Virus record (IMG/VR): IMGVR_UViG_3300042350_005906
Location: 1-33,619 of that record
DNA length: 33,619 bases
Origin: a virus
Strand: one strand, 5' to 3'
Part shown: piece by piece, positions 3,618 through 33,567 of the stretch
How positions within the stretch are numbered: the stretch's first letter is position 1
Layout: the number at the start of each line of letters is the position of its first letter
Notes under the pieces: generated by a model
The model's database searches: none
Told to the model about the DNA's origin: nothing
What the model saw: only the letters and a program-made list of their open reading frames with translations
Made by a program: the position numbers and the translations under genes

Positions 3618-4340
3618 TTACTCATATATTTCTATCTTGATCTGATTTTTATCAAATCCTAAGCTTTGTAGATTACTTTTTGCTTGTTTTACCATATCTT
3701 TCCACCCACATATAAAAAATTCCATATCCAAATTATTATATGTTCCATTTTCAATTTGATCAAAATAGTTATTTATAATAGATTCATATACAGTATGAAC
3801 ATATCCTTGATTACCATTCCATAATTCTCTTGATAATATAATATGATACTTGAATTGTGGTAAATCTTTTTCTAATTGAGTCATCTCATTATAATATAAT
3901 ATATTTTCTACATTTCTTGTTCCAAACACTAAGTGTATATCACCAGTTTCAATCTTATTTTCTCTAATATGCTCAAGCATACTTTTAAATGGTGATATAC
4001 CAGTACCTGTACAAATAAATATATAATTCTTTTTAGTATTATCACCCATTATCATTATCCCAGAAGGTCCTTCATATATAAGTTGGGTACCAATTTTAGA
4101 TTGCCATAGATATTCAGTACCTTTCCCTCCAGGTTTTTTAACTATAATTAACTCGTATGTATCCTGGGAGGGGGTATTAGCTATAGAATAATGTCTAATC
4201 CTACGTGATGGTTTTTCATCAATGGGTAGTTCTAGTGAAAGAAATTGCCCGGGTTTAAAAAGGGGTTTTTGTTCAGGTTTAAGATAAAAACGGCTGACTG
4301 TTGATGTTTCTTTAATAATATTAGTTAGTATTGCTTTCAT
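3618..4340 (-). CDS. Ferredoxin-NAD(P)H reductase-like flavoprotein
   Basis: 240 residues forming a compact FNR module: an FAD-binding barrel with RHYSIAN (50-56, the RxYS flavin motif), then a KPGGKGTEYLW segment, then the NAD(P) domain with ICTGTGISP near 109-117. It ends in an FFICGWKDM segment and a GFD...EIYE tail. It has no N-terminal 2Fe-2S plant-type ferredoxin domain, unlike the CDP-glucoseen reductases (AscD/DdhD), so its electrons must go to or come from a separate partner. The neighbouring LdpA-like double [4Fe-4S] protein, one gene away in the same run of genes, is the obvious candidate by position. The start overlaps the end of the HAD gene by 20 bases. A role in reductive sugar chemistry is inference. 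Confidence 0.87.
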   Translation of the reverse strand: MKAILTNIIKETSTVSRFYLKPEQKPLFKPGQFLSLELPIDEKPSRRIRHYSIANTPSQDTYELIIVKKPGGKGTEYLWQSKIGTQLIYEGPSGIMIMGDNTKKNYIFICTGTGISPFKSMLEHIRENKIETGDIHLVFGTRNVENILYYNEMTQLEKDLPQFKYHIILSRELWNGNQGYVHTVYESIINNYFDQIENGTYNNLDMEFFICGWKDMVKQAKSNLQSLGFDKNQIKIEIYE

Positions 4341-4713
4341 TATATAAAAAATTTATGACTTTATGTCTAGATTCTTTGTCTGATCCAAAGGTTATAGCCT
4401 TATCATCAATATAATAGTCAGCCATTATTTTTGGGCTATATCCTGATAGTTTTTTTTGGTCTGGTAGGTTCTCATTTATGGCATCAAATTCTAATCCTTT
4501 TTCCCCACACCATTTAACAGCTTCTGTAAGTGATTTATATTGTTCATTATCACCTCTATTTGTCCATAAAATCAACTTATGCCCTCTTTGTCTAAGATTT
4601 ATAAGTAGAGTCATCAGCTCTACTTGCTCTGGTGATTGGTTTCCTATTTTTGGAAAAGCATATTCACATAAAGTCCCATCAAAATCTACAGCTATAACTA
4701 ATTTTTTATTCAT
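4321..4713 (-). CDS. HAD-superfamily phosphatase-like protein, 130 aa
   Basis: A small HAD fold: motif I is VDFDGTL with nucleophile Asp10 and acid/base Asp12, motif II Thr is at 51 in WTNRG, a lysine for motif III is at 94, and motif IV is DYYIDD (98-103). There is no large cap domain, which fits small cytosolic phosphatases acting on phosphorylated sugars or nucleotides. Genes of this size are common in phage and in polysaccharide loci. The start overlaps the LdpA-like gene stop by ATGA. Dephosphorylation of a sugar-phosphate intermediate is likely, but the substrate is unknown. Confidence 0.8.
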   Translation of the reverse strand: MNKKLVIAVDFDGTLCEYAFPKIGNQSPEQVELMTLLINLRQRGHKLILWTNRGDNEQYKSLTEAVKWCGEKGLEFDAINENLPDQKKLSGYSPKIMADYYIDDKAITFGSDKESRHKVINFLYNESNTN

Positions 4714-5864
4714 TTTATGTTTAATTTTACTAATTCATGAGCCGTTAAATACGCCTCTTTTATAATATCAAAGTTTTCATAGAAATCTGGGTGGGAGACA
4801 AAATCTTCTATAATATCTCGAGCATAAGTTCCAATAGCTACTCCATTACATCTTACTTCACACTGTTCAGCTAGTTGTTTAGATAAAGCATTTGTTCCTC
4901 CTGAAAGTATAATGTATACTCCAGTTTTATGGTTAGAAGGACGGTATACTCTTTTAGAGGTTAGTTTCGCTTTTCCGGGACCTATTTTAGTAGTTTTTTT
5001 ATCTACTCTCATATTAAATTTCTTATTAATGACATCAGCGCAAGATACAGCTTGAAGGGTAGTATTGAAATCATTTTCTCCTCCACTCATAGGATACCCA
5101 TCAGCTTGAATAATAAGCTTATCGCCTGATATTTTTTGGGCTTCTTCAATCCTATACTCCAGATTTAGATTTCCTAAGTTTAGTCTATCTAAACACATAG
5201 AATTAAAGTTAGTAGGATTAATCTCATTAACTAATTTCCATTCCTCCATAGTAACTTTATGTTCCCCCACAGCAGCATGTAATTCAAACAACTCAGCACC
5301 TGCTTCTAGGCATTCTGGAAGTAGTTTTTTTAGTTCACGAGCGTTATGTCTATAAGAAATAATATCGTCTTTAGGGCAAATATTGCTACATTTACCACAT
5401 CCTATACAAAGATCTTTAACTACTATTTCTTTTGATGGGTCTTCAAATTCAAATGAACCCTTTAATCCTTTAAATATGTCTAATTTTTCAGTAAAACCTT
5501 TAGGAATAGCTTCAGTAGGGCATACTGGGATGCATAAATTACATCCCACACACTTGTTGGGGTCAATGTATGATTTTCTTACATGGTGGTCACCTGGCAT
5601 TCCTATACTTGCCATAATAAAGGGGCGGGTTCCTATATCTACATTTAGTTGGGGGGCAATTTCGTATGCTAAATTTATCCCTTCAACAGCATGTTTAACT
5701 ACTTCAACATTAGCTGAAATATCTAATATTTTAGCCCCTGCTAAGGTATAGATAAAGGAAAGTTTTTTAACATAAGGGGCATCTTCATTTCCTGCCCCAC
5801 ATATCATTTTAAAACATTTCTCTTCATTAAGAAGAGTTTGTAACATTTGAAACCTTGAACTCAT
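4710..5864 (-). CDS. LdpA-like double [4Fe-4S] protein
   Basis: 384 residues. Two ferredoxin-type cluster motifs, CxxCxxCxxxC, lie at Cys105/108/111/115 and Cys153/156/159/163. The N-terminal ~95 residues, with CFKMICGAGNED and YTLAGAKILDISAN, resemble the start of cyanobacterial LdpA (light dependent period A), whose clusters follow a segment like PFIMASIGMPGDHHVRK seen here at 81-97. The C-terminal ~200 residues look like an alpha/beta TIM-barrel-type domain, as in the LdpA C-terminal and dihydroorotate dehydrogenase-related folds. LdpA is known as a redox-sensing Fe-S protein that tunes the circadian input in Synechococcus. Its enzymatic activity, if any, is not settled. Here it sits between two aldolase-fold genes and a flavin reductase, which suggests a redox enzyme in sugar or carbon metabolism. 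The family call comes from remembered sequence patterns and needs a profile search. Confidence 0.72.
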   Translation of the reverse strand: MSSRFQMLQTLLNEEKCFKMICGAGNEDAPYVKKLSFIYTLAGAKILDISANVEVVKHAVEGINLAYEIAPQLNVDIGTRPFIMASIGMPGDHHVRKSYIDPNKCVGCNLCIPVCPTEAIPKGFTEKLDIFKGLKGSFEFEDPSKEIVVKDLCIGCGKCSNICPKDDIISYRHNARELKKLLPECLEAGAELFELHAAVGEHKVTMEEWKLVNEINPTNFNSMCLDRLNLGNLNLEYRIEEAQKISGDKLIIQADGYPMSGGENDFNTTLQAVSCADVINKKFNMRVDKKTTKIGPGKAKLTSKRVYRPSNHKTGVYIILSGGTNALSKQLAEQCEVRCNGVAIGTYARDIIEDFVSHPDFYENFDIIKEAYLTAHELVKLNIK

Positions 5865-6619
5865 TATTTTCTATTTTTAAGTAATCCAATCCTTTCAGAA
5901 TATTCAGCACTTAATTTGGATGATATAGATAACTTATATTGTAACCATTCTATTTCAAAATCTAATGCTTTTTGGATTACATTATCAATAGTATGAATAT
6001 TGGTTTCATTAAGTCCTATTACAACATTTCTAGTTTCTACTCTGTCTAGTAGATTTTTATGGTACATATCTTTTATAAATTGGGTACTTCTAGTTGATAC
6101 GCTCCCTCCAAGTGTGTTTATATAACCTAGTTTTTTAGATTTACTTAGAATTTTTTCTACTTTATCAAGTATAAAATTACTATCTACCTCTGATTTATTT
6201 AAGTTATAAGATTTAGAAAAATCAGATCTCCCCACTACAATTCCTTTTAATTTTCCTTTTCCATTTTCTAATATTTCATCTATATTATTATATGAAGTTT
6301 TACTTTCAATAACAATATATCCATCAGCTCTATTACTATAAGGCTCAATCATTTCAGTAAATTTACTTAGTGCAAACTCTGTTTCAACCATAGGAGCAAT
6401 AATACCATTTATACCCATTCGTATACAATTATATAGATCACTTTTAGCTTCACATCCCCCTATCTTAACAAAGGATTGCAAACCACAAATCTCAGTAACC
6501 CTTTTAAAAGCTACTACATCATTCAATAAAACTCCTTCATCCTCAAAAGATTGTTTCATCCCAATAATACCATAATTTTTACCTAAATTTTTTAAACTGT
6601 CTTTTAAATCTATTACCAT
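5864..6619 (-). CDS. HpcH/HpaI-type aldolase-fold protein (second of pair)
   Basis: Started at ATG 6619, which overlaps the stop of the preceding gene by 7 bases, this gives 251 residues. A longer frame from 6676 would overlap by 64 bases and add a 19-residue tail unlike the family. A TIM-barrel pattern of the HpcH/HpaI and citrate lyase beta kind is visible: VKIGGCEAKSDL, GINGIIAPMVE (metal-site region), YIVIESKTSYNNIDEIL (acidic ligand after the strand) and GIVVGRSDFSKS. Family members bind Mg or Mn and make or break a carbon bond to pyruvate or acetyl-CoA-like units. This copy is divergent from the one before it, so a distinct or non-catalytic role is possible. It overlaps the LdpA-like start as TAATG. 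Confidence 0.72.
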   Translation of the reverse strand: MVIDLKDSLKNLGKNYGIIGMKQSFEDEGVLLNDVVAFKRVTEICGLQSFVKIGGCEAKSDLYNCIRMGINGIIAPMVETEFALSKFTEMIEPYSNRADGYIVIESKTSYNNIDEILENGKGKLKGIVVGRSDFSKSYNLNKSEVDSNFILDKVEKILSKSKKLGYINTLGGSVSTRSTQFIKDMYHKNLLDRVETRNVVIGLNETNIHTIDNVIQKALDFEIEWLQYKLSISSKLSAEYSERIGLLKNRK

Positions 6620-7314
6620 AACTGTGTGTTTATAATTTTTATTGATTCTAAAATAAAATTTGTATCCATTCCCCAAATTAATAACATAGGTCTCTCTTTA
6701 TTCTCTATTTTTTTATAGTTATCAATATCCTTTTTAGTAGGTAAGAATAAACCCAACTTTTCTATTGGTACTATGTTATATACTTTATTAATATAATCCA
6801 AAAAAATTGAATTTCCAAACTGGCCTGGGATTTTTAGGCTTGATGAGATGTCATAAGGTCCTATTAGGAATAAATCAAATTCGCAATTTATTAAATCTTT
6901 GATATTATCAATAGCTTTTTGGGTTTCAATTTGACCTATAATGATAGGTTTGTGGTAATCTAATGGATACTCTCCCCATTTATTTTCTCTAACTAGTCCA
7001 CATCCTCTTATTCCTCCTTGAGACGGATACTTACAATAATTTATTATTTCCTTAGCTTCTATAGTATTTTCTATAGTAGAGAATATAACTCCATCAACTC
7101 CAGCATCCAAACACATTCTTACTAGTTGTTTGTCTAAAGTGGTAAATCTAACAAAACATTGTTTTTTTTGCAATGTTATAACTTGAATACAACTATATAA
7201 TGTTTGATTATCAAAATGACCATGTTCCATATCTAAGACTACACCATCTAAATCTGAATGAGTTAGCAATTCTGATATTAAGGGGGATGGTATTGTTTGT
7301 AATGTTAAATTCAT
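6613..7314 (-). CDS. HpcH/HpaI aldolase family protein (first of pair)
   Basis: 233 residues, close to the ~250 of 2-keto-3-deoxy-acid aldolases. Family landmarks in order: LDGVVLDMEHGHFD (the DxEHG segment), VRFTTLD, LDAGVDGVIFSTIEN (usual position of the glycine-rich metal region), YPSQGGIRGCG, GQIETQKAIDNI with the metal-ligand Glu, and FLIGPYDISSSL, which matches the canonical iGpnDLs motif. These enzymes catalyse reversible aldol addition of pyruvate to aldehydes. It is coupled to the thiamine enzyme gene by an ATGA overlap, so a two- or three-carbon extension step shared between them is a plausible inference. Confidence 0.85.
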   Translation of the reverse strand: MNLTLQTIPSPLISELLTHSDLDGVVLDMEHGHFDNQTLYSCIQVITLQKKQCFVRFTTLDKQLVRMCLDAGVDGVIFSTIENTIEAKEIINYCKYPSQGGIRGCGLVRENKWGEYPLDYHKPIIIGQIETQKAIDNIKDLINCEFDLFLIGPYDISSSLKIPGQFGNSIFLDYINKVYNIVPIEKLGLFLPTKKDIDNYKKIENKERPMLLIWGMDTNFILESIKIINTQLW

Positions 7315-9101
7315 TTTCTTATATCATATGATAAATTATTAACTCCTATTATCATATTTTTTTCAATATCACTTATGTCTAATAAAGGAGACATATCCTC
7401 TATAGGAGGTGCCAATATTCCATCTACTACAGCAATTCCTTTCACTTTTGGAACCAATTCTTGTTCAGGATTCATGAAACACTCAAATATAGCAGACTTA
7501 TTATAATTTAAAAAATCTTCTAGCTTTGATTTTTTACTATTAAAATAGGTTATACCAAAGGCATTAGATATTTTCTCAAAATTAGGAAGTGAAACACCAG
7601 TAGATGGATCAACCCCTGTATATCTTCCATTAAACAACATTTTCTGGGTGTGTTTTATAAACAGATAACCTTCGTTATTAAATATAATAATTTTTAATGG
7701 TAAATCATATCCAACAATTGTTTGCAATTCTTGTAGATTCATCATCATACTACCATCACCATCAAGTAATATAGTATTTCCTTTATGTGCAAAACACGCT
7801 CCTATAGCTGATGGGAGTCCATTTCCCATTTCACCTAATCCATTTGAAGCAAAAGCAATTTGATTGGGTTTTAACTCTAAAGCTTGATGGCTACAAGGTA
7901 GTGGGGTTCCTTGTCCTATAATAATTACATCATTATTCTTGAGATGTTTAGATAGATTGTTTATAAAAACATAAGAATTATCATAAGTCTCATTATCTAA
8001 TATATGTTGTTTTTCAATTAAAGGAAAACGATCTTTATATAAAACACATTGATCATACCAATCATTTATGTTTATTGATATATTACTATTCAATAATTTC
8101 TCTATAATTTTACTACAATCTTCTTGAATAGTTAAATTGTATCTAATATGTTTTTTGAGCTCACCTTCATCATTATTTATCATAACAATCTTTGCTTTTG
8201 GAGCAAAATTGTCTATATCATATCCTGTTTGTGGTAAAGCTAATCTACTACCTAATACTATAAGTAGATCACAATTCTGTATAACAAAATTAGCACATCT
8301 CTGTCCATATAAACCCGCACAACCAAAGTTATAAGGATGATTATATGGTAATATATCAAGACCTGACCATGATAATAATGTAGGAATTTTTAGTTTATCT
8401 ATTAAAGCTTTTAGTTTTTCTTGACTCTTTGAAAGTTTAATACCGTGACCTGCTAATAACACAGGACGTGTGGATTTAGATATTAGATTTATCAGCTCAT
8501 CTATTTTAGAATCTAATTCAATTTCTTTATAAGACTCCTCAGGTATAAATTTATTTAGATCTGTAGGAACTACTTTAGAATTTTGTATATCAAATGGGAT
8601 ATCTAACCATACAGGACCGGGTCTTTCATGTAAACAATAATGATAAGCTTTTTCAAGATGATATAATGACTCATTCTTATCCATTATAGTATCTGAATAT
8701 TTTGTCATACTTGACACAACCTCAGCTGCTTTAAATCCCTGAGTTCCTAACATTCTGAGGTTGGAATGAGCGTTAATATATTTGGTAGCTTCTTGCCCAG
8801 ATAGTATTAAGCATGGTATAGAATCAGCCCAATTACTTAATACTCCTGTGATAGCGTTTGAAGCTCCTGCTCCTGCTGTAACAATAGCCGCTGACAGTCT
8901 ACCATTAGTTCTATAATAAGCACCTGCTGCCATTACAGCTGCTTGTTCATGATGCATATATACTATCTTTGTATAACCTTTGTTCGCAATAGAATCAAAT
9001 ATATGAGCATTAGCTGATCCAATAATACCAAATACAATATCAATACCTTTTTTACATAAAAAGTCAGCTATAAGATCAGATACTTTTATAATATTTACCA
9101 T
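7311..9101 (-). CDS. Thiamine pyrophosphate-dependent enzyme (acetolactate synthase-like)
   Basis: 596 residues, full length for the acetohydroxyacid synthase/pyruvate decarboxylase superfamily. The N-terminal Pyr domain has the activating glutamate in HHEQAAVMAAGAY (Glu52). The middle domain includes RPVLLAGHG and GSRLALP. The C-terminal PP domain has the ThDP/Mg motif GDGS at 448-451, with the following Asn in IFNNEGY. Related enzymes in sugar loci (YerE in yersiniose synthesis) add an acetyl unit from pyruvate to a 4-keto sugar. An ordinary ilvB role is unlikely here because there is no small subunit or other amino acid gene. The RmlB-like dehydratase gene overlaps its start by 7 bases and two aldolase genes follow, so carbon-chain extension of a sugar is the inferred role. 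Confidence 0.85.
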   Translation of the reverse strand: MVNIIKVSDLIADFLCKKGIDIVFGIIGSANAHIFDSIANKGYTKIVYMHHEQAAVMAAGAYYRTNGRLSAAIVTAGAGASNAITGVLSNWADSIPCLILSGQEATKYINAHSNLRMLGTQGFKAAEVVSSMTKYSDTIMDKNESLYHLEKAYHYCLHERPGPVWLDIPFDIQNSKVVPTDLNKFIPEESYKEIELDSKIDELINLISKSTRPVLLAGHGIKLSKSQEKLKALIDKLKIPTLLSWSGLDILPYNHPYNFGCAGLYGQRCANFVIQNCDLLIVLGSRLALPQTGYDIDNFAPKAKIVMINNDEGELKKHIRYNLTIQEDCSKIIEKLLNSNISININDWYDQCVLYKDRFPLIEKQHILDNETYDNSYVFINNLSKHLKNNDVIIIGQGTPLPCSHQALELKPNQIAFASNGLGEMGNGLPSAIGACFAHKGNTILLDGDGSMMMNLQELQTIVGYDLPLKIIIFNNEGYLFIKHTQKMLFNGRYTGVDPSTGVSLPNFEKISNAFGITYFNSKKSKLEDFLNYNKSAIFECFMNPEQELVPKVKGIAVVDGILAPPIEDMSPLLDISDIEKNMIIGVNNLSYDIRK

Positions 9102-10045
9102 ATAAATTTATCTCTGTAATATTCTATTATATTAGTTAATTCTTGGTCAAACTGTTTTTTAGGTTCCCATCCTAATTTCTTTAATTTAGAATCATCTAAA
9201 GCGTATCTAACATCTTGACCTTTTCTATTAAAACTAGTATCAATATACTTAAGAAAATCTACATCTCCAAGGTATTCTTTAATAATTTTTTTAACTGTTA
9301 TAATATTGGATTGTTCAAACCCCCCAGCTATATTATATACCTCATTAGTTACTTTAGATTCAATTATAGTAATAATAGCGTCAGCTGTGTCTTGGGCATG
9401 TAACCAATTTCTAATAGGTGTTCCAGCATTATGTAATGGAATTTTTTTACCTAAACCTAAATATTTGCAAGCTTTAGGTATAAGTTTTTCAATATATTGA
9501 CCTATACCATAATTGTTAGTAGGACGGACTATAAGGTAAGGTAAATTATATGTTCGAGCCCAAGCTAATATTAATTGATCAGCTGCTGCTTTAGTAGCTG
9601 AGTATGGGTTACTAGGGTGAAGGAGATCAGTTTCAGTATGAGCTCCTTTTTCAATATCTCCATAAACCTCATCAGTACTAAAATGTAAAAATATAGGTTT
9701 TTCTGAGTTTTCACCTCTATAATTTCTGATTAGTTCTAAGAGGTTATGCACACCTTTTATATTTGATTCAATAAATACTTCACTTTCAAATATAGAATTA
9801 CCTACATGAGTTTCAGCTGCTGTATTAATAACATAGTCACAATCATATAAAAATTTTAAGTCATTTATATCACAATGAACAAATGAAAAATTTTTATACT
9901 TATTAAATTCTTTTAATAAATGTTTGTTAGAAGCATAGGTCATTTTATCTACGCCTTTAACATACCATCCCTTTTCTAAACAGGTTCTAGTTACATAAGA
10001 TCCTATAAACCCCAAACAACCTGTTACATAAACTACTTTAATCAT
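9095..10045 (-). CDS. rfbB: RmlB-like NDP-glucose 4,6-dehydratase
   Basis: 316 residues. Extended SDR with TGCLGFIGS (8-16) for NAD, then FSTDEVYGD, where Thr124-Asp125-Glu126 are the catalytic trio of 4,6-dehydratases, and Tyr148-x3-Lys152 in YSATK. RPTNNYG and RNWLHAQD match the nucleotide- and substrate-binding regions of dTDP-glucose 4,6-dehydratase, and GQDVRY near the end is also family-typical. It converts an NDP-hexose into its 4-keto-6-deoxy form, the entry point to many deoxysugars. dTDP is the likely nucleotide from the RmlB-like motifs, but GDP or CDP cannot be excluded. It is about 10-15% shorter than typical RmlB, mainly in loop regions. Confidence 0.9.
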   Translation of the reverse strand: MIKVVYVTGCLGFIGSYVTRTCLEKGWYVKGVDKMTYASNKHLLKEFNKYKNFSFVHCDINDLKFLYDCDYVINTAAETHVGNSIFESEVFIESNIKGVHNLLELIRNYRGENSEKPIFLHFSTDEVYGDIEKGAHTETDLLHPSNPYSATKAAADQLILAWARTYNLPYLIVRPTNNYGIGQYIEKLIPKACKYLGLGKKIPLHNAGTPIRNWLHAQDTADAIITIIESKVTNEVYNIAGGFEQSNIITVKKIIKEYLGDVDFLKYIDTSFNRKGQDVRYALDDSKLKKLGWEPKKQFDQELTNIIEYYRDKFIW

Positions 10046-13355: not shown

Positions 13356-14313
13356 TCAATTTATTTTTAATATTATTTCTTATTTGTTGATTAATATTTG
13401 GAAATTTGTTTTTAATTTTATCTAAAAAAATAGAATTAGATAAAACATAATGGCCACAAATTTTAATTAATTCCTTCTTATTAAGATATGGATCAAAATC
13501 CTGATTTACCCATTTTACCCATTTTTTAGAATCATAACATATTTTCCAATATTCATTAAATATAATATCATCTTTTATAAAGTCCAAATAAGTTTGAGTT
13601 TCTATTAACCCAAATTCAGGAGCTATATTAATTGAATCTAACCCTAGGTTAAATTTTTCCTTAATAACAGAAACCGGAATATAGTCCCCATTATGTTCTT
13701 TAGATAAAAGATTATTTTGTTTACAAACTTTAATCATTTCTTTCAACCTAGTAGAATCATAATTACCTGTTTGGCTTGTGCCTTTTAATGAAGTACCAGA
13801 CTGGGTTACTAAATATTTGATTTGTTTAAATATCTCAGGGTTTAATTTAGATTTAAGTTGATGAACTAAGTCACTTAACTCATAGGGCTCAAACCGTCTG
13901 ATAGCTTCTTCTGTACCCACCTCATATTGAATATTAGGATTTTGATTATAGCAATATTCAATCATTTTAATAGTTTCTTCTAAACCTTCAGAAAATATAG
14001 GATATTTTTTCCAAGGATCAATATGAATAACATCTAGATGTTTACAATCTTCACTTAATGATTCATACCCATCATCACTAATTTGTCCTTGTTCAGGACC
14101 TGAGTGGTCACGCACTATTAAAATTTTGTCTGTTTTAGATCTAATATATTCTGAAAATTCCTGGGTAGTCCAATTATTAACATATCCCCTAGTGTTTTCT
14201 ACTTGTCTACGAGAAGGGATTAGACCTATAATATTATCTGTTTCATTACAAAATTCTATAATAGAGTCAACTATATTTTTAGACATGGGTCCAATAAAAT
14301 ATTTAGGTATCAT
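13339..14313 (-). CDS. GatZ/KbaZ-like TIM-barrel protein
   Basis: 324 residues. The order of motifs follows the D-tagatose-bisphosphate aldolase non-catalytic subunit (GatZ/KbaZ): a PSRRQVENTRGYVNNWT segment like the family SNQVNxxGGYTGMT, then IVRDHSGPEQG (67-77) like GGDHLGPNPW, then IHIDPWKKYP (97-106) like the HLDxS strand, then YEVGTEEAI (137-145) like YVIGTEVPV. In enterobacteria GatZ partners with the class II aldolase GatY. No GatY-like gene is visible here, so it may act alone on another phosphosugar or as a scaffold. It overlaps the AroE-like gene by ATGA, suggesting the two work together. The family call is by remembered motifs. Confidence 0.6.
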   Translation of the reverse strand: MIPKYFIGPMSKNIVDSIIEFCNETDNIIGLIPSRRQVENTRGYVNNWTTQEFSEYIRSKTDKILIVRDHSGPEQGQISDDGYESLSEDCKHLDVIHIDPWKKYPIFSEGLEETIKMIEYCYNQNPNIQYEVGTEEAIRRFEPYELSDLVHQLKSKLNPEIFKQIKYLVTQSGTSLKGTSQTGNYDSTRLKEMIKVCKQNNLLSKEHNGDYIPVSVIKEKFNLGLDSINIAPEFGLIETQTYLDFIKDDIIFNEYWKICYDSKKWVKWVNQDFDPYLNKKELIKICGHYVLSNSIFLDKIKNKFPNINQQIRNNIKNKLNELYR

Positions 14314-14918
14314 ATGTTAGTATATATTTTATATTGTTCTTCAGCTTGCAGTTTAGCTATTATTTTCCCAGATTGGGTAAAAGGTCTACCATCTATTAAA
14401 TGTCCTTTAGTAATTACTTCTATAGGAGTAGCATTAAAAATATATCCTTTTAAATTATAAACTCTATCCCAATCTTTTCTTGTGATAACTTCATATGGAA
14501 TATTTTTATGGGTACACATATATTGAACAGCTTTACTAAAACCTCCATCACCTAATATAGTTAGAAAATTAATGTCTTCCAAGAGATATTTAGAAACTCC
14601 TAACCAATCTGTATTGTAAGCTTTTAAATAACCATCTATATTTGTAATAGTATTAGCAGCCCCTATATTTTTACTCGCTTCATCTAATTCATCAACATAA
14701 TTTAATACAGTTGTTTTAAATGGTATGCTAACAGCAAATCCTGTTATATTTAATGTTTTAACAGCATTTATAGACTTAACTATATCATCTGAATGGAATG
14801 ATTTATATATAGCGTTAATATTATTTTCTTGGAATTTAGTATTAAAGAATTCACACCCATTATTTCCAGGGTTAGAAGAAAATGAGCAGAATATTTTAGT
14901 GTCTTTGTTTATCAACAT
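14310..14918 (-). CDS. AroE-like shikimate/quinate dehydrogenase homolog, short
   Basis: 202 residues from ATG 14918. A longer frame from 14972 overlaps the preceding gene by 77 bases and would add an unusual hydrophobic leader. The substrate-binding domain matches AroE: an FSSNPGNNG start, GFAVSIPFKTTVL with the catalytic lysine in PFK, IGAANTITN, then YNTDW with the paired aspartate. The NADP domain is reduced: a TILGDGGFSKAV loop is present, but the domain is about 65 residues shorter than in typical AroE (~270 aa in all). It could be an active small dehydrogenase for a shikimate-like or cyclitol substrate, or a binding protein. No other shikimate pathway gene is present. Confidence 0.78.
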   Translation of the reverse strand: MLINKDTKIFCSFSSNPGNNGCEFFNTKFQENNINAIYKSFHSDDIVKSINAVKTLNITGFAVSIPFKTTVLNYVDELDEASKNIGAANTITNIDGYLKAYNTDWLGVSKYLLEDINFLTILGDGGFSKAVQYMCTHKNIPYEVITRKDWDRVYNLKGYIFNATPIEVITKGHLIDGRPFTQSGKIIAKLQAEEQYKIYTNI

Positions 14919-16821
14919 TATGAAATAACTCAATAGATTTAAACCAAAGCATTTTAGAAAACTTATCATCATGTAAAGGAGACATATTTAAAAATATTAG
15001 AGCGGTGATAAATTTTATTAAGTCTAAATCATATTTATTATCTATTATCCATTTCTCATATTCAAACTTAAATTGAGTTAATTGATTGGATATAAAATAT
15101 GAATAATCTATATTTAATGATCCTTCATTTAAGGTAATAAATGAATCATTTTTAACTTTATTATAGGGAATAATACAACCACCATATAATTTAGCTAAAT
15201 CATAATATAAATCTCCTCCTTTTGTATTACCAGCGAATGATTCTCTCCAATCAATATATGTAAATTTATTAGTTGATGGGTCAAAAAGTATATTATCAAA
15301 TTGAAGATCTCCATGGAATAAATCATACATTTGAATTGAAGTATGATCAAATGATAATTTATCTAAAATATTATTTAAAGAATTATATTTAGTTCCATTA
15401 ATAATATATTCTTGTTCAGCATAATGTTTCCCAAATTTTTCTATAAATTTATTTTTACGTTGGGTAGTTTTATCAATATAAAAGATTTTAGATTCAGTTA
15501 CATTACTATCAAAAAATTTAGCTTTAGTTTGAATTAAATTATTATAAAAATCTAAAAATTTAATAAAATAATCTAAATTATCATGTTGATATAATGTTTC
15601 TCCTTTTTCCCAATTATAACTGATGAAATATTTGCTACTAGAAAATTCTGATGGGATTAAATTTTTTAATACATTAGCTCGTTTTGCTTTATTTTTAATA
15701 AAAACTTCATCAGGATTAAATTTAATAAATTTATTTTCTTTATATGTTATTTCATCTGTTGTTTTATATAAAGATAATGGATGGTCTCTAAAATATTCTT
15801 TAGCCTTATTTAAGTCATCTAAATTACCTGTATCTAGCCAATGTAAATGTTTAGCTTTAAAACTGGGGTATTTGCCTAGATTATCAAATGCTGATACTAT
15901 TTCTCCATTTTGGGTATTAGATTCTAGTTCTCTCCAGAAGATATCAAAATCCCAAATACTAGCTAAACCTATAAAAGCATTATCATACCCATTTGTATCT
16001 TTATTAACAAATTTTAGAATGTTATCATTATCATCTATATCAGCTGTAGAATATTTTTCAGGGTAACTAGTAGGATAAACACCTAGCCAATTCCCATCCA
16101 AATGAGGCATCTTTGAATCTATAATGCAATCTGCCACTACAAAATAGAATGGACGTTGTAAGTATTGTTTACATTGTAAGGCAGAATGTCCAGGGCCTGA
16201 TCCATCTTGGTCAAAATTATCAACATCTACAAATGTGAATTTGTGATTAGGATAACTTAATAAACAATATTCTTTTAGTGATTCTCCTTTATAACCAAGA
16301 GCTATTATAAATTCATACTCACTAGGAAATTTATTTATAATATGAGAAATAATAGCTTTATTATTAATAGGTAATAATGCTTTATTAATATTTTTAGTTA
16401 GATTTTTTAAACGACTACCTATCCCCGCAGCTAGAATTAACACAGCAGGTGTTTTATGCTCAGCTTCTACCTTACCATCAGTTCTATTAAATTCATCATT
16501 TATTCTAATAACATCATCTACATGGGGAGTAGATACTTCTTGTAAGATAATATCTGTTATAGCTATCACTCTATGTTTTTTAGGTGGTGTGACATCAAAA
16601 AAGTCCCCAGCTTTCATGATTTTTTTCTCAACAACTCCTTCATCATTTTCTAACCATACTTCAGCTGTTCCTGAAATAATGTAGTTAGTTTCATGTTTGG
16701 ATTGGTGGTATTGGTAACTAGTTTTATAGCCAGCATTTATATAAATTCTTTTATAGCAATAAAAATCATTTAATGCTAACCATTCTTCTTTTCCCCAAGG
16801 TTTATGAACTATTTTATACAT
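14896..16821 (-). CDS. Cupin - sugar nucleotidyltransferase - APH-type kinase fusion
   Basis: 641 residues in three modules. Residues ~1-110 are a cupin like the C-terminal half of type II mannose-6-phosphate isomerases, with YQYHQSKHETNYIISG and PPKKHRV. Residues ~123-340 are a nucleotidyltransferase with LAAGIGSR (130-137), Lys148 in KALLPI, and a VADCIID segment carrying the metal-site Asp. Residues ~400-620 are an aminoglycoside-phosphotransferase/choline-kinase fold with HGDLQFDN (503-510) and DWR (524-526). Together they could phosphorylate a sugar or aminoalcohol and charge it with a nucleotide. The gene is extremely A/T-rich (7 G/C in 60 at 15541-15600). The leader has no Shine-Dalgarno. 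Analogous fused enzymes exist for fucose (FKP), but with a different kinase fold. Confidence 0.8.
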   Translation of the reverse strand: MYKIVHKPWGKEEWLALNDFYCYKRIYINAGYKTSYQYHQSKHETNYIISGTAEVWLENDEGVVEKKIMKAGDFFDVTPPKKHRVIAITDIILQEVSTPHVDDVIRINDEFNRTDGKVEAEHKTPAVLILAAGIGSRLKNLTKNINKALLPINNKAIISHIINKFPSEYEFIIALGYKGESLKEYCLLSYPNHKFTFVDVDNFDQDGSGPGHSALQCKQYLQRPFYFVVADCIIDSKMPHLDGNWLGVYPTSYPEKYSTADIDDNDNILKFVNKDTNGYDNAFIGLASIWDFDIFWRELESNTQNGEIVSAFDNLGKYPSFKAKHLHWLDTGNLDDLNKAKEYFRDHPLSLYKTTDEITYKENKFIKFNPDEVFIKNKAKRANVLKNLIPSEFSSSKYFISYNWEKGETLYQHDNLDYFIKFLDFYNNLIQTKAKFFDSNVTESKIFYIDKTTQRKNKFIEKFGKHYAEQEYIINGTKYNSLNNILDKLSFDHTSIQMYDLFHGDLQFDNILFDPSTNKFTYIDWRESFAGNTKGGDLYYDLAKLYGGCIIPYNKVKNDSFITLNEGSLNIDYSYFISNQLTQFKFEYEKWIIDNKYDLDLIKFITALIFLNMSPLHDDKFSKMLWFKSIELFHNVDKQRH

Positions 16822-26939: not shown

Positions 26940-28565
26940 TTAAAACATTCCAGGCATTCCTCCAAGTGACTCTTCACTCTTTTCTTTTGGTTTCTCAACC
27001 ATAGTACATTCAGTTAACAAAATAGTACCAGCAATAGAAACAGCGTTTTCAAGAGCACATCTTGTAACCTTAGTTGGATCAATAATACCAGCTTCAAAGA
27101 AATCAATAAATTCAGAAGCTTTAATATTATAACCTACATTTTTATCTTCTTGATCTAAAATAGAATATTTAATAGAATGTACTTCATCTTCCAATCCAGC
27201 ATTAATAAGAATTTGTTCAAATGGTTTCTGGAGAATTGATTGCATAATTTTACAGCCTAATTCTTCATCATAATTTTTAGTTTCACAAACTGTATTATAC
27301 GCTGAGTGTAATAAAGCTAATCCACCTCCAGGGACAATACCTTCTTCAATAGCGGCTTTAGTAGCTTGAAGAGCATCATCAACACGATCTTTTTTCTCTT
27401 TCATCTCAGTTTCAGTGTTTCCACCTACATGAATGACAGCTACACCACCAACCAATTTAGCTAAACGTTCTTGGAGCTTTTCAGTTTCAAATGGTGAAGT
27501 TGAATTTTCAATTTGGTTTTGGAGTGAAGTACATAATTCTTTAATTGTATCAGCATCTCCAGCTCCATCTACAATAGTTGTAGTTTCTTTAGTAACAGTG
27601 ACTGTACGACATTCACCTAACCAATTCAAATCAAACTTTTCCAATTTCATACCTTTGTCCTTATCAACTACTTGACCACCAGTTAATGTAGCCATATCAT
27701 TCATAAGCAAAGTACGACGATCACCAAAGTCAGGAGCTTTAACAGCACATACATTCAAAATACCTCTCATTTTGTTAACAATAAGAGTAGCGAGTGCTTC
27801 ACCATCAATATCTTCAGCTACAATCAAAAGTGGTTTACTTTGAGAAGACATATTTTCCAACAATGGAAGCAAATCTTTAATTTGAGTCAATCGACCATTG
27901 TAGAATAGGATAGATGGATTTCTGAGTGTGCAACTCATATCATCATTATTAGTCACAAAATAAGGTGATTTGTAACCACGATCAAATTGAAGACCTTCTA
28001 CTGTTTCAAGATAAGTTTCACCTGTACGAGATTCTTCAATTGTGACAATACCTTCTCTACCTACTTTATTAATAGCAGTAGCAATCAATTCTCCTACTTC
28101 TTCATCATTGTTAGCTGAGATAGTAGCTACTTGGCGAAGTTGGTCTTCACTAGAGATGTCTTGAGACATTTTACGAAGTGTTTCAACGTGTGCTTTGGTA
28201 CACTTATCAAGACCTCGTTTGATATCTACAATATTATGCCCCTTATCACTATAACGAGAAGCGGCGTCTACAATTTCACGAGCTAATAAAGTAGAAGTAG
28301 TTGTACCATCTCCAGCTTGTTCAGCTGTTTTAATAGCTGCTTGCTTAAGCATTTGAGCGCCCATATTTTGAATTGGGTCTTCAAGCTCAACAGCTTTAGC
28401 TACAGTAACACCATCTTTAGTGCTTTGAGGAACACCATGTACATTTTGAATAACAACATTTCGACCATTAGGTCCTAAAGTAGTTACAACAGCATCTGCT
28501 AACTGTTGTATTCCTAGTGCTAGATTCTTTCTAGCTTCATCTCCATAATTTATAATTTTTGCCAT
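26940..28565 (-). CDS. groEL: GroEL-type chaperonin
   Basis: 541 residues, near full size (E. coli 548). The ATP site shows TTLGPNGRNV and AGDGTTTST with the catalytic Asp; KDGVTVAKAVEL and GIVPGGGLALL are also family hallmarks. The C terminus ends in GGMPGMF, a short version of the Gly-Met tail. It would form the 14-mer that folds proteins with GroES in the cytoplasm. The gene lies 12 bases after groES, the standard bacterial order. Phage GroELs are uncommon and often divergent; this one keeps the bacterial-type core. Upstream is only a stop and the leader ATAAATAAAAGTT without Shine-Dalgarno. Confidence 0.96.
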   Translation of the reverse strand: MAKIINYGDEARKNLALGIQQLADAVVTTLGPNGRNVVIQNVHGVPQSTKDGVTVAKAVELEDPIQNMGAQMLKQAAIKTAEQAGDGTTTSTLLAREIVDAASRYSDKGHNIVDIKRGLDKCTKAHVETLRKMSQDISSEDQLRQVATISANNDEEVGELIATAINKVGREGIVTIEESRTGETYLETVEGLQFDRGYKSPYFVTNNDDMSCTLRNPSILFYNGRLTQIKDLLPLLENMSSQSKPLLIVAEDIDGEALATLIVNKMRGILNVCAVKAPDFGDRRTLLMNDMATLTGGQVVDKDKGMKLEKFDLNWLGECRTVTVTKETTTIVDGAGDADTIKELCTSLQNQIENSTSPFETEKLQERLAKLVGGVAVIHVGGNTETEMKEKKDRVDDALQATKAAIEEGIVPGGGLALLHSAYNTVCETKNYDEELGCKIMQSILQKPFEQILINAGLEDEVHSIKYSILDQEDKNVGYNIKASEFIDFFEAGIIDPTKVTRCALENAVSIAGTILLTECTMVEKPKEKSEESLGGMPGMF

Positions 28566-30215: not shown

Positions 30216-30959
30216 TTAGTAGTCTGCTTTTCTTACAACAAAGTATGTAGTTTTTGTATTTTCTTCTTTAAAATCAAATTCTAATTTAAGTAATCCTTCT
30301 TGGGTGAATTTAATTGATGTAGAAGACGCACCTTTATTATTATGGAATATTTCTCTCAACATATTAGAATTGAATGGTATTTTATGTCCTTCAACAATAG
30401 AATGTTGAGCTTCAACAGTGAATGTAATTCTGTTTGAAAATTCCATTTTCTCTCCAAAAATAAACTCTAAAATAGGATTATCATGAATACTTTCAGTTGC
30501 TTTAAGAGTAACTAATTCATTATTAGGTATAGCTGAGGCTGCTTTAGTAAAGGCTAAAACATCATTAGGTTCCATAGTAGCTGATATATCATATTTGTCT
30601 GGTTCGTTTATAGTACCAGGTGATTGAATCATTAATGGATCTGCTAATGAATATTCAACTGTAAAACTAACATCTTGAAGAGTTAATTTAGTGTATACTT
30701 TATTAGTTTTAATTGGAGATATTAGTAATTGACCTGAGGTAACACCTAATAGTTTGTTTAATTGGGTAGTGTTAAATATAGCTAATTCACAATCTTCAAT
30801 AGGAAATTCATTACATTCAAGTTCTCCAATCATATCTTTATTTGGAGACATAAAGGCTATATTTAATGTATTATTTTGTATTTCCCACTTAACAGATTCA
30901 ATTAAACCCCCAAGATAATACCTTGAGATAATTGATTGGAGATGATTTTTTTCTATCAT
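30216..30959 (-). CDS. 45: Sliding clamp (T4 gp45-like)
   Basis: 247 residues, against 228 in T4 gp45. The two-domain clamp pattern shows alternating strands such as LNIAFMSPNKDMIGEL, ELVTLKATE and LKLEFDFKEE, and a C-terminal TTYFVVRKADY strand. The trimeric ring tethers the polymerase to DNA and, in T4, activates late transcription. The assignment rests on overall pattern and on position directly after the split polymerase; gp45 sequences are poorly conserved. The ATG overlaps the 43B stop by one base (TAATG). Confidence 0.82.
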   Translation of the reverse strand: MIEKNHLQSIISRYYLGGLIESVKWEIQNNTLNIAFMSPNKDMIGELECNEFPIEDCELAIFNTTQLNKLLGVTSGQLLISPIKTNKVYTKLTLQDVSFTVEYSLADPLMIQSPGTINEPDKYDISATMEPNDVLAFTKAASAIPNNELVTLKATESIHDNPILEFIFGEKMEFSNRITFTVEAQHSIVEGHKIPFNSNMLREIFHNNKGASSTSIKFTQEGLLKLEFDFKEENTKTTYFVVRKADY

Positions 30960-31888
30960 TAGAAATTAAAAAATTTATTTTTATATGGATTCAAATTTAA
31001 ATTCCAACCTAAATCATTATAGAATCCTTCTAATTTTGTTTGTAAAATGGTTTCAAATGATTTTTTACGGTCAGCATAATCATCCATAAATTTACGTATC
31101 TTATCTGGGAGATCAAAGTCTAAGAATGCAAGTGTTTCTATTTTATAAGGATTGTCTTTTAAATAAACCCATTTGATTTTATCACCTTGTACTATGTAAC
31201 TGTGTTGTTTGTCTAATTTCCAAAATCTAATTAGATCATTATAACGAACAGCAGCTTTTACGTTAGCAGGAGCACCTTTAACTAACTCAGTTAATATTTC
31301 ACTTGGTTTAGGTTTTCGAGTTACATAGTCATTTAATGTTTTAACTGAGGTTGGATTGCCTAGTAATGTAATGTCAGTATCAAGTGACATCATTCTTTCT
31401 TGAAATTCAAGGATTTGTTTATCAATTTCACTCTGTTTAACTCCTTTTAGTACTTGTTTAAGAACACTATCAAAAAACTTTCCAAACACAGGAGGAAAAT
31501 TAGCTTTCTTAAATTCAAGTCCTTTAATATCAAGTGATTCTTTAGATATACCTTCTTGTTTAGTAATCCATTGAGCATATCTACGAGTAGCTCTAAAATA
31601 AGCAGAACGAATAACACATTCTGTTTTCATTTCAAATCTATGAGTAGGTACATTGAAACATTCTTTAGCTAAAGTATTATAATATTCAGTAATAATGTCT
31701 TGGTATTTTAGAGCTATCTGTTCAAGTAAATTATCTTTTTCTTCATCACTTTTTTCTTCAAAGTCAGGATAAAGATATTTTAATAAAGGTTCAGCATTAA
31801 AATAATTGGAGTCTGTATCAACATATGCACAAAAATTATAATCACCTTCATCACATATCCACCACGGTGTTTCTTCTAAATGTATCAT
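30959..31888 (-). CDS. 43B: DNA polymerase C-terminal subunit (43B-like)
   Basis: 309 residues. It opens with motif C, CAYVDTDSNYF, with catalytic Asp24 and Asp26, then the rest of the palm and the thumb, including RATRRYAQWI and KGLEFKKANFPP, regions that contact template-primer DNA in family B enzymes. The C terminus ends YKNKFFNF, aromatic and suitable as a sliding clamp-binding tail like that of T4/RB69 gp43. It lacks motifs A and B, which lie in the preceding gene, so it cannot work alone. It is coupled to that gene by an ATGA overlap. The sum of the two products, 869 residues, is close to T4 gp43 (898), so little was lost in the split. Confidence 0.92.
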   Translation of the reverse strand: MIHLEETPWWICDEGDYNFCAYVDTDSNYFNAEPLLKYLYPDFEEKSDEEKDNLLEQIALKYQDIITEYYNTLAKECFNVPTHRFEMKTECVIRSAYFRATRRYAQWITKQEGISKESLDIKGLEFKKANFPPVFGKFFDSVLKQVLKGVKQSEIDKQILEFQERMMSLDTDITLLGNPTSVKTLNDYVTRKPKPSEILTELVKGAPANVKAAVRYNDLIRFWKLDKQHSYIVQGDKIKWVYLKDNPYKIETLAFLDFDLPDKIRKFMDDYADRKKSFETILQTKLEGFYNDLGWNLNLNPYKNKFFNF

Positions 31889-33567
31889 AATATTACTTCA
31901 CCTTTAATTACTTTATTCATATGGCGGTTAGCACATAAAGCGCTTTCTTGGATAATTCTTTGACCACTTAGAGTAATAGATTCACTCAGAATAACACTAC
32001 CATATCTAAAACTACCAAGAGCAGTCGCGCCATATAAACTATTTAACAAAATTTTCATTGTATGTTGTCTTTGGTGCCAAAATGCCCCTTTTTCTTTATC
32101 ACCAGCTTTATAAGCTTTTTTCATATAACCTTTATACTCTACCCTTTCATCAAACCACTTAGCCAAAATTGTTGATAAAACTGATTGTTTGTCTGTTCTA
32201 TACATCACACCATTAGCAGAAATGGCTAAATTATTTTCTATAATAAGTTGGGTTAATTTACTTACTTTAATATAAGTTTGCTTACGATTAGCATTTTCAA
32301 TAAGTAGTTCTTCATTAGGATTTCTTGTTTTTAAATCATTTAATCCTAATCTATTATTTCTATCATCATTGTCTATAATACGAGCTACAAATGTCTCTTT
32401 ACCAATATTAAGGGACATAATGATAGAAGGATATAGTGAAGTCAAATCCTCATCAAACATATACTTATACAAACCTGCAGCAGGGCAAAACAAATAACCT
32501 CCAGCATAATTCTTTTTAGTAATAGGATTTCTATCTTTAGCTGGTGGTATAATATTTTGGTCTAATAGATAAGCTGAGATAGCGCCATCTTGGGTTTTAG
32601 TGTTAGCATATACCTCACCATAGTTGTGTTTACCCTTATGAGACAAGTTTTTAACTAACCCAACATATTCAAATTTTTCATCTAATGCTTTTAGAATCTC
32701 AACATCTCGAAAGTTGTATTGGATAAACTTTTGAATATCTGTTTCAAATAATCTATCCAAATTACCATCATATTCAACCTTACCTAACCCAACATATTTT
32801 TCTCCAATAGCGTCTAATCTCATAGATGGTTCATCTCTGAAACTAAATTTTTTATGAAGTTTCATGTAGTCAAGAGATTCAACACCAGCTATATTTAGCC
32901 ATCCATCTCTATTCCATTGACTTTCATCTCTAACAATGTCAATTGGAGATAAAGCATTAGCAAATTCTTCACCTAATACATTACTAATCCTAAAATAAAG
33001 ATATGGAATATCAAAATAATCACTATTCCATCCTACTAAAATATCAGGATTAATTTCTTTATATCTTTCAAGAAAAGTAGCTAGTAATTCTTCTTCAGTT
33101 CTACAAGGAACAATTTCTTTATGTCCTTTAGTATGTCTAATTTGACCTTTTTTATCTAAAATAAGAATAACCCATTTATCAGGTGTTTTATCCCACCAAG
33201 CAATAGATGTTACAGGCTTAGGAGCAGCTTGAATATATTCTTCTGTAAGCGCTCCTCCCATTTCAATCTCAATATCAAAAAATACTTCACGATGTCCTTT
33301 AGATACATCATCATTAATTCCATATTTTTCAATAAGGAATTTTTGGTATGGGGGCATATCATGAAAATGAACATTGGGAGTATTTTTATCCCAATCATAA
33401 GTTTTTTTGAGCCATTCTCCATTTAGTCCCTGATAACTAGCTTCATGTTCAGGGCATTCTATATAAGCGGGATTGCGCCAGGGGATTATTTTGTAATCAT
33501 TTTCAGTCCATAAATGTATCTTATATTGGTTTTTACCAACATATTCAGCATAACATTTTTTATACAT
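31885..33567 (-). CDS. 43A: DNA polymerase N-terminal subunit, exonuclease plus motifs A and B (43A-like)
   Basis: 560 residues. The 3'-5' proofreading domain is intact: Exo I FFDIE (Asp98, Glu100), Exo II WNSDYFD (Asn181, Asp186), Exo III YNFRD (Tyr284, Asp288). The polymerase palm begins with motif A, DLTSLYPSI (374-382), and motif B, KILLNSLYG (505-513), in the fingers. The protein ends at residue 560 with no motif C. It is the first half of a family B polymerase like T4 gp43. The next gene, coupled by ATGA, supplies motif C. No homing endonuclease or intron lies at the split. The leader has no Shine-Dalgarno. Confidence 0.94.
   Translation of the reverse strand: MYKKCYAEYVGKNQYKIHLWTENDYKIIPWRNPAYIECPEHEASYQGLNGEWLKKTYDWDKNTPNVHFHDMPPYQKFLIEKYGINDDVSKGHREVFFDIEIEMGGALTEEYIQAAPKPVTSIAWWDKTPDKWVILILDKKGQIRHTKGHKEIVPCRTEEELLATFLERYKEINPDILVGWNSDYFDIPYLYFRISNVLGEEFANALSPIDIVRDESQWNRDGWLNIAGVESLDYMKLHKKFSFRDEPSMRLDAIGEKYVGLGKVEYDGNLDRLFETDIQKFIQYNFRDVEILKALDEKFEYVGLVKNLSHKGKHNYGEVYANTKTQDGAISAYLLDQNIIPPAKDRNPITKKNYAGGYLFCPAAGLYKYMFDEDLTSLYPSIIMSLNIGKETFVARIIDNDDRNNRLGLNDLKTRNPNEELLIENANRKQTYIKVSKLTQLIIENNLAISANGVMYRTDKQSVLSTILAKWFDERVEYKGYMKKAYKAGDKEKGAFWHQRQHTMKILLNSLYGATALGSFRYGSVILSESITLSGQRIIQESALCANRHMNKVIKGEVIL

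Follow-up and report, generated by a model that had tools for sequence, protein, structure and literature searches.

An LdpA-superfamily protein with a predicted TIM barrel and inserted ferredoxin domain in a putative sugar-acid operon of a marine phage

According to the literature, the cyanobacterial protein LdpA senses redox state through Fe-S clusters and alters the level of CikA, its mode of action being listed as unresolved (PMC13421787), and in a survey of 11,264 genomes it was said to be exclusive to Cyanobacteria (PMC5520375). In the sampled picocyanobacteria, ldpA lies in the core locus ndhN-ldpA-HAD-recA. The LdpA-like phage protein studied here shares with LdpA the same eight cysteines, the barrel-mouth residues and homology over the full length, whereas its gene is part of a putative sugar-acid operon and the protein belongs to a separate clade. 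The apparent gene logic of the LdpA-like cassettes as a whole, namely, an aldol-type condensation, a HAD phosphatase and a CMP-transferase, resembles that of the KDO (KdsA-KdsC-KdsB) and nonulosonic acid (NeuB-NeuA) pathways, and the KdsB-like genes of the bacterial operons and of some viral loci are a KDO-like trait. However, HpcH/HpaI and HMGL aldolases replace the PEP-dependent KdsA or NeuB, and the LdpA-like redox protein is additional. The dihydropyrimidine dehydrogenase subunit PreA (FMN barrel and ferredoxin domain) and IspG (TIM barrel and [4Fe-4S]) provide an analogy of the mode of action only; in contrast to them, the phage protein is predicted to have its Fe-S domain inserted after beta3, and its barrel has no sequence relative in the PDB.

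The window, that is, the whole analyzed stretch of 33,619 nucleotides, is an IMG/VR virus contig of a marine T4-like phage (IMGVR_UViG_3300042350_005906), and the T4-like replication genes (PolB and clamp-loader subunits) together with GroEL/ES corroborate the phage location of the LdpA-like gene. The T4-like DNA polymerase was split into two ORFs overlapping by 4 nt (positions 30959-33567; phrog_262 positions 78-568 and 565-844). The GroEL sequence (26940-28565) was closest (58%) to those of Flavobacterium phages, and the sequences upstream of the operon genes were A-rich, with no clear Shine-Dalgarno motifs, both features hinting at a Bacteroidota host.

The plus-strand frame opposite the LdpA-like gene was closed. 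On the minus strand, seven genes overlapped by 1-20 nt (Table 1), the overlaps being 1 nt for HpcH2 and the LdpA-like gene, 4 nt for the LdpA-like and HAD genes, and 20 nt for the HAD and FNR-like genes. Because neighboring genes overlap in this way, they very probably constitute one translationally coupled operon. The glycan/aldolase block proposed in the original prediction was upheld; as to the immediate neighbors named there, the aldolase-fold gene does adjoin the LdpA-like gene, whereas the flavin reductase gene does not, the HAD phosphatase gene lying between them. By inspection, HpcH1 retained the usual HpaI active-site motifs, and HpcH2, for which a longer TTG-start frame reaches position 6676, retained the candidate metal-binding residues E105 and D133, its other motifs being altered. 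The FNR-like reductase had no [2Fe-2S] domain, and no CMP-transferase gene was found beside the LdpA-like gene in the window. The glycan block also contained an ORF for a 220-aa shikimate-dehydrogenase-like protein (14310-14972; NF009202, 128 bits, under cut-off), and positions 14896-16821 encoded a 641-aa protein with a cupin-like N-terminus, a sugar nucleotidyltransferase (~127-340) and a long C-terminal part.

Table 1. Genes of the putative operon in the phage window.
Feature	Position	Strand	Evidence and remarks
RmlB-like NDP-sugar 4,6-dehydratase	9095..10045	minus	TIGR01181, 303 bits, under cut-off 365; 7-nt overlap
TPP-dependent enzyme, acetolactate-synthase-like	7311..9101	minus	Pfam TPP_enzyme N/M/C; TIGR00118, 320 bits, under cut-off
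HpcH1, HpcH/HpaI pyruvate-aldolase homologue	6613..7314	minus	Pfam, 56.6 bits; TIGR02311, 75 bits, under cut-off
HpcH2, divergent HpcH/HpaI aldolase-like	5864..6619	minus	Pfam HpcH_HpaI, 31.6 bits; ATG at 6619
LdpA-superfamily gene	4710..5864	minus	384 aa, ATG start
HAD phosphatase, BT0820-like	4321..4713	minus	NF046079, 92 bits, under cut-off 165
FAD/NAD(P)H reductase, FNR/flavohemoprotein-reductase type	3618..4340	minus	Pfam NAD_binding_1, 67 bits; FAD_binding_6, 39.6 bits

Both cysteine sites were found at the predicted residues (C105-x2-C108-x2-C111-x3-C115-P and C153-x2-C156-x2-C159-x3-C163-P), and the eight cysteines were invariant in 87 aligned rows (37 sugar-type and 50 LdpA) and in one Melainabacterial sequence (L041). 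The likeness to LdpA, initially noticed in the N-terminal segment, proved to span the protein: the NCBIfam LdpA equivalog model NF045992 matched residues 12-358 (E = 1.4e-39, 136.2 bits), Pfam LdpA_C (PF12617) matched residues 294-359 (28.6 bits against a gathering score of 22.2), LdpA_Fe-S-bd (PF25160) scored 39.7 bits (gathering score 27.6), and hhalign aligned the viral-protein profile with the true-LdpA profile over 317 columns (E = 1e-44, probability 100%). After deletion of the Fe-S domain, the alignment including LdpA still contained 26 invariant barrel positions. Homology to LdpA outside the cysteine motifs thus excluded a similarity confined to ferredoxins, the outcome named beforehand as counting against the prediction; chance cysteine motifs or an ordinary ferredoxin were likewise ruled out by homology over the full length. 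The dN/dS values between viral copies of the gene were 0.01-0.13 (pairs with unsaturated dS); consequently, the gene is under purifying selection.

It should be noted that the score of the phage protein (136.2 bits) was far below the NF045992 equivalog cut-off of 450 bits, which was reached in 45 of the 117 sampled cyanobacterial genomes. In the phylogenetic tree, LdpA formed one group (17 rows, support 100/99) with the phage protein outside it, among viral proteins adjoining those of Pelagibacteraceae and separated from LdpA by strongly supported long branches. The wider clade also included Prochlorococcus, Nitrosomonadales, Microthrix, Chloroflexota and other sequences, with a Melainabacterial group as its sister; the deep joins call for caution, since long branches meet there according to the warning of the program. 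Since it lies under the equivalog cut-off and outside the LdpA clade, the phage protein is, judged by its sequence, a member of the LdpA superfamily and not the clock protein LdpA itself, from which its operon also differs; it represents a new branch of the superfamily with a likely enzymatic role. No clock role was indicated. That a phage-borne LdpA disturbs the clock of a cyanobacterial host, as the homology to LdpA might suggest, is extremely improbable in view of the tree and the gene context: the branches from the LdpA clade are strongly supported, a scan of viral contigs with the LdpA alignment yielded no true LdpA, the nearest bacterial relatives belong to Pelagibacteraceae, and the GroEL of the window is nearest to that of Flavobacterium phages.

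According to an AlphaFold2 model based on a 35-sequence alignment (pLDDT 90, pTM 0.85), the phage protein is predicted to be a TIM barrel with an inserted ferredoxin domain. The strands of the model (17-21, 46-50, 82-87, 192-197, 221-226, 250-255, 317-321 and 341-344) follow the (beta-alpha)8 order, and the 2x[4Fe-4S] ferredoxin domain (residues ~88-174) is inserted between beta3 and alpha3. Foldseek retrieved from the PDB generic TIM barrels, mainly aldolases and RuBisCO-like proteins (FBA II, DERA, RuBisCO; 7-13% identity), and such generic matches of low identity do not name the chemistry. A PDB search with the barrel profile minus the Fe-S domain gave two spurious matches only (E 0.17-0.2), Pfam gave no match of the phage protein to the DHOD or IspG families, and no sequence signature of a flavin or metal site was recognized in the LdpA-like protein. 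Residues K19, C22-G-A, D48, S86, D92, H94, K97, E194 and H196, and in the C-terminal half Q253, D255-G, M259, G261, GGTN 322-325, G345 and R349, were unchanging or nearly so and were common to LdpA-like, Melainabacterial and LdpA proteins, most of them being located at or just past strand ends. Because these barrel-mouth residues are invariant across LdpA-like proteins and true LdpA, they indicate a putative enzyme active site, and the motifs SGGTN (beta7) and GxAxGTxAR (beta8) appear similar to the ends at which many TIM barrels bind phosphate.

Comparison of the neighborhoods in other viruses revealed a HAD gene directly downstream of the LdpA-like gene in all 21 viral loci, and HpcH2 directly upstream in 18 of them, one gene away in two (L007 and L081) and undetected in one (L080). 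A TPP enzyme was nearby in about 13 of the 21, and a CMP-transferase-type gene (Pfam CTP_transf_3 or KdsB-like) in eight; virus L183 carried LdpA-like, HAD, HMGL, HpcH and TPP genes. In bacteria, the order was HMGL-type aldolase, LdpA-like, HAD, HpaI and KdsB (L020, L024 and L025), with the KdsB-like protein of L024 reaching the NCBIfam kdsB cut-offs; the operon was partly present in L017, L026, L040 and L042, and a few relatives (L018, L034-L036, L038, L039 and L041) had no sugar-acid neighbors. Such a gene logic would fit the aldol formation, dephosphorylation and CMP activation of a 2-ulosonic acid. The FNR gene was rejected as a conserved partner, since among the viral and bacterial loci compared it was near the LdpA-like gene in this window only. 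In viral contig L101, the LdpA-like gene had shrunk to an 83-aa ORF covering the N-terminus only (6995-7246), with HpcH2 on one side and a HAD gene of another kind on the other. In Prochlorococcus, the LdpA-like gene was directly followed by a gene for a second, degenerate LdpA-type barrel of ~280-300 aa without Fe-S sites (L023:8041-8880; also L027, L028, L029 and L033), perhaps a non-catalytic partner subunit. No paper was found in the literature on LdpA and a TIM barrel, on the LdpA C-terminal domain, or on the enzyme set of the bacterial operon, and there is no characterized homolog with a known reaction.

Taken with the fold and the invariant residues, this context makes it fairly probable that this LdpA-superfamily protein is a redox enzyme with a TIM barrel, acting on a phosphorylated sugar-acid intermediate on the way to a CMP-activated ulosonic sugar; the purifying selection and the rare, patchy occurrence of the gene also agree with this reading. 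Speaking against it are the generic nature of the Foldseek matches, the negative outcome for flavin- and metal-site signatures and for homologs of known reaction, the window having no CMP-transferase gene next to the LdpA-like gene, and the few relatives that stand apart from sugar-acid genes. The two [4Fe-4S] clusters of the inserted domain would receive their electrons from host ferredoxin or an NAD(P)H reductase; in this phage, the FNR-like reductase encoded two genes downstream could plausibly be the donor, and host ferredoxin may serve elsewhere. The clusters are probably electron-transfer clusters because each would be ligated by four cysteines, and the ferredoxin domain, which in the model follows beta3 and so lies at the barrel's catalytic end, could pass electrons on to a cofactor or substrate bound by the invariant residues C22, D48, H94, K97, E194, H196, Q253-x-D255, GGTN 322-325 and R349. 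The substrate would most likely be a phosphorylated sugar-acid intermediate of a 2-keto-3-deoxy (ulosonic) sugar pathway, in which HpcH/HpaI aldolases, in some cases joined by an HMGL aldolase or TPP enzyme, may build the sugar, the HAD protein may remove the phosphate, and the sugar may then be activated as a CMP derivative for a surface glycan; the phage could in this way alter the surface glycan of its host. The original prediction of a step in sugar or carbon metabolism has good grounds. What the analysis establishes is the homology, the predicted fold, the invariant residues and the conservation of the operon, whereas the reductive direction is an inference, as are the electron path, substrate and product.

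It is quite improbable that the protein is a plain electron carrier, i.e., a ferredoxin serving some other enzyme encoded in the cassette: two [4Fe-4S] clusters and an FNR-type reductase gene two genes downstream would fit this, but the conserved 300-residue barrel would be superfluous and has invariants of its own, and the ferredoxin similarity spans residues ~96-190 only. Low probability is likewise given to a genuine sugar-acid context in which the barrel performs a non-redox step (aldol or isomerase) and the clusters are structural; the closest Foldseek folds are indeed aldolases of the phosphate-binding barrel group, but the eight cysteines are invariant and the cassette already encodes aldolases. 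A redox-sensing regulatory subunit, whose clusters would report the redox state and gate the aldolase or phosphatase while the barrel is degenerate and non-catalytic, is unlikely. Such a role would agree with the description of LdpA as an Fe-S redox sensor affecting the CikA level (PMC13421787), and the tight pairing with HpcH2 and HAD genes would fit a complex; however, conservation of the barrel mouth, which extends from phage and bacterial proteins to LdpA, is stricter than a sensor would require, and the degenerate Fe-S-less barrel of Prochlorococcus exists separately, beside an intact one.

The gene is rare among the sequences searched. The LdpA-like protein was found in none of the 50,697 INPHARED records, BFVD contained no fold match at E <= 0.001, and PHROGs yielded only a 25-bit match to the Fe-S motif, in agreement with the earlier remark that no phage homolog had been described. 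No plasmid had more than the ferredoxin motif. In IMG/VR, 24 of 2.9 million contigs matched (one as a fragment only), and L183 represented a further, more distant full-length viral relative. The protein was encoded in 30 bacterial or archaeal genome contigs, of which L013 and L019 seem to be contigs of phage origin within MAGs. Its distribution was patchy, with 3 carriers among 297 Pelagibacterales and 1 among 398 Pseudomonadota (both counts including the seed genome). Full-length relatives occurred in phages, Pelagibacteraceae, Thioglobus, Actinomycetota, Chloroflexota and other groups, which contrasts with the published exclusivity of LdpA to Cyanobacteria (PMC5520375).

In a sample of 251 genomes of one picocyanobacterial family, none of the nine carriers of the LdpA-like gene had an LdpA match, which was present in 218 of the 242 other genomes (hypergeometric 4e-9 for mutual exclusion, without phylogenetic correction). 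With true Prochlorococcus LdpA as a BLAST-type query, the LdpA-like gene was the sole match in 11 of 11 carriers tested. A larger picocyanobacterial sample with 14 carriers gave the same pattern; it overlaps the 251-genome set, was scored with fewer candidates per genome, includes a carrier with an unlisted second match (G1215) and for these reasons was not taken as separate support. In the non-carriers sampled, ldpA was flanked by ndhN and a HAD gene, recA lying past the latter; in one Prochlorococcus contig (L216:5102-7068), true ldpA followed by the HAD hydrolase gene echoes the LdpA-like/HAD pairing. In nine carriers (G002, G018, G029, G858-G862 and G944; loci L221-L229), ldpA was missing after ndhN; eight of these loci were closed up, with the persisting HAD gene and recA directly after ndhN, and G002 still had a remnant of the LdpA C-terminus, broken by stop codons. 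Carriers were scattered over the rpoB tree, for which non-carriers had been picked as LdpA-positive; the best tree required eight label changes, of which strongly supported branches forced at least four. Phylogenetically independent pairs on starred branches numbered only four (sign test 0.125). Thus, the association between carriage and ldpA absence is strong, but its tree-corrected test is weak. On the simplest reading, the LdpA-like gene would functionally replace ldpA; the alternatives are that the absence stems from shared ecology or from incompatibility.

These results suggest that LdpA itself could have an enzymatic function or ancestry instead of being solely a redox sensor. A broader proposal, which is tentative, is that LdpA is an enzyme and not primarily a sensor, that the superfamily is an unrecognized class of TIM-barrel/[4Fe-4S] oxidoreductases whose members in phages and bacteria take part in making ulosonic acids, and that a sugar-island copy replaced the core ldpA of Prochlorococcus several times. 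The loss of ldpA in carriers of the LdpA-like gene is a natural experiment on what LdpA is needed for, and the conserved sugar-acid operons together with the enzyme-like barrel mouth lead to a biochemical hypothesis that can be tested across the family, the clock protein included.
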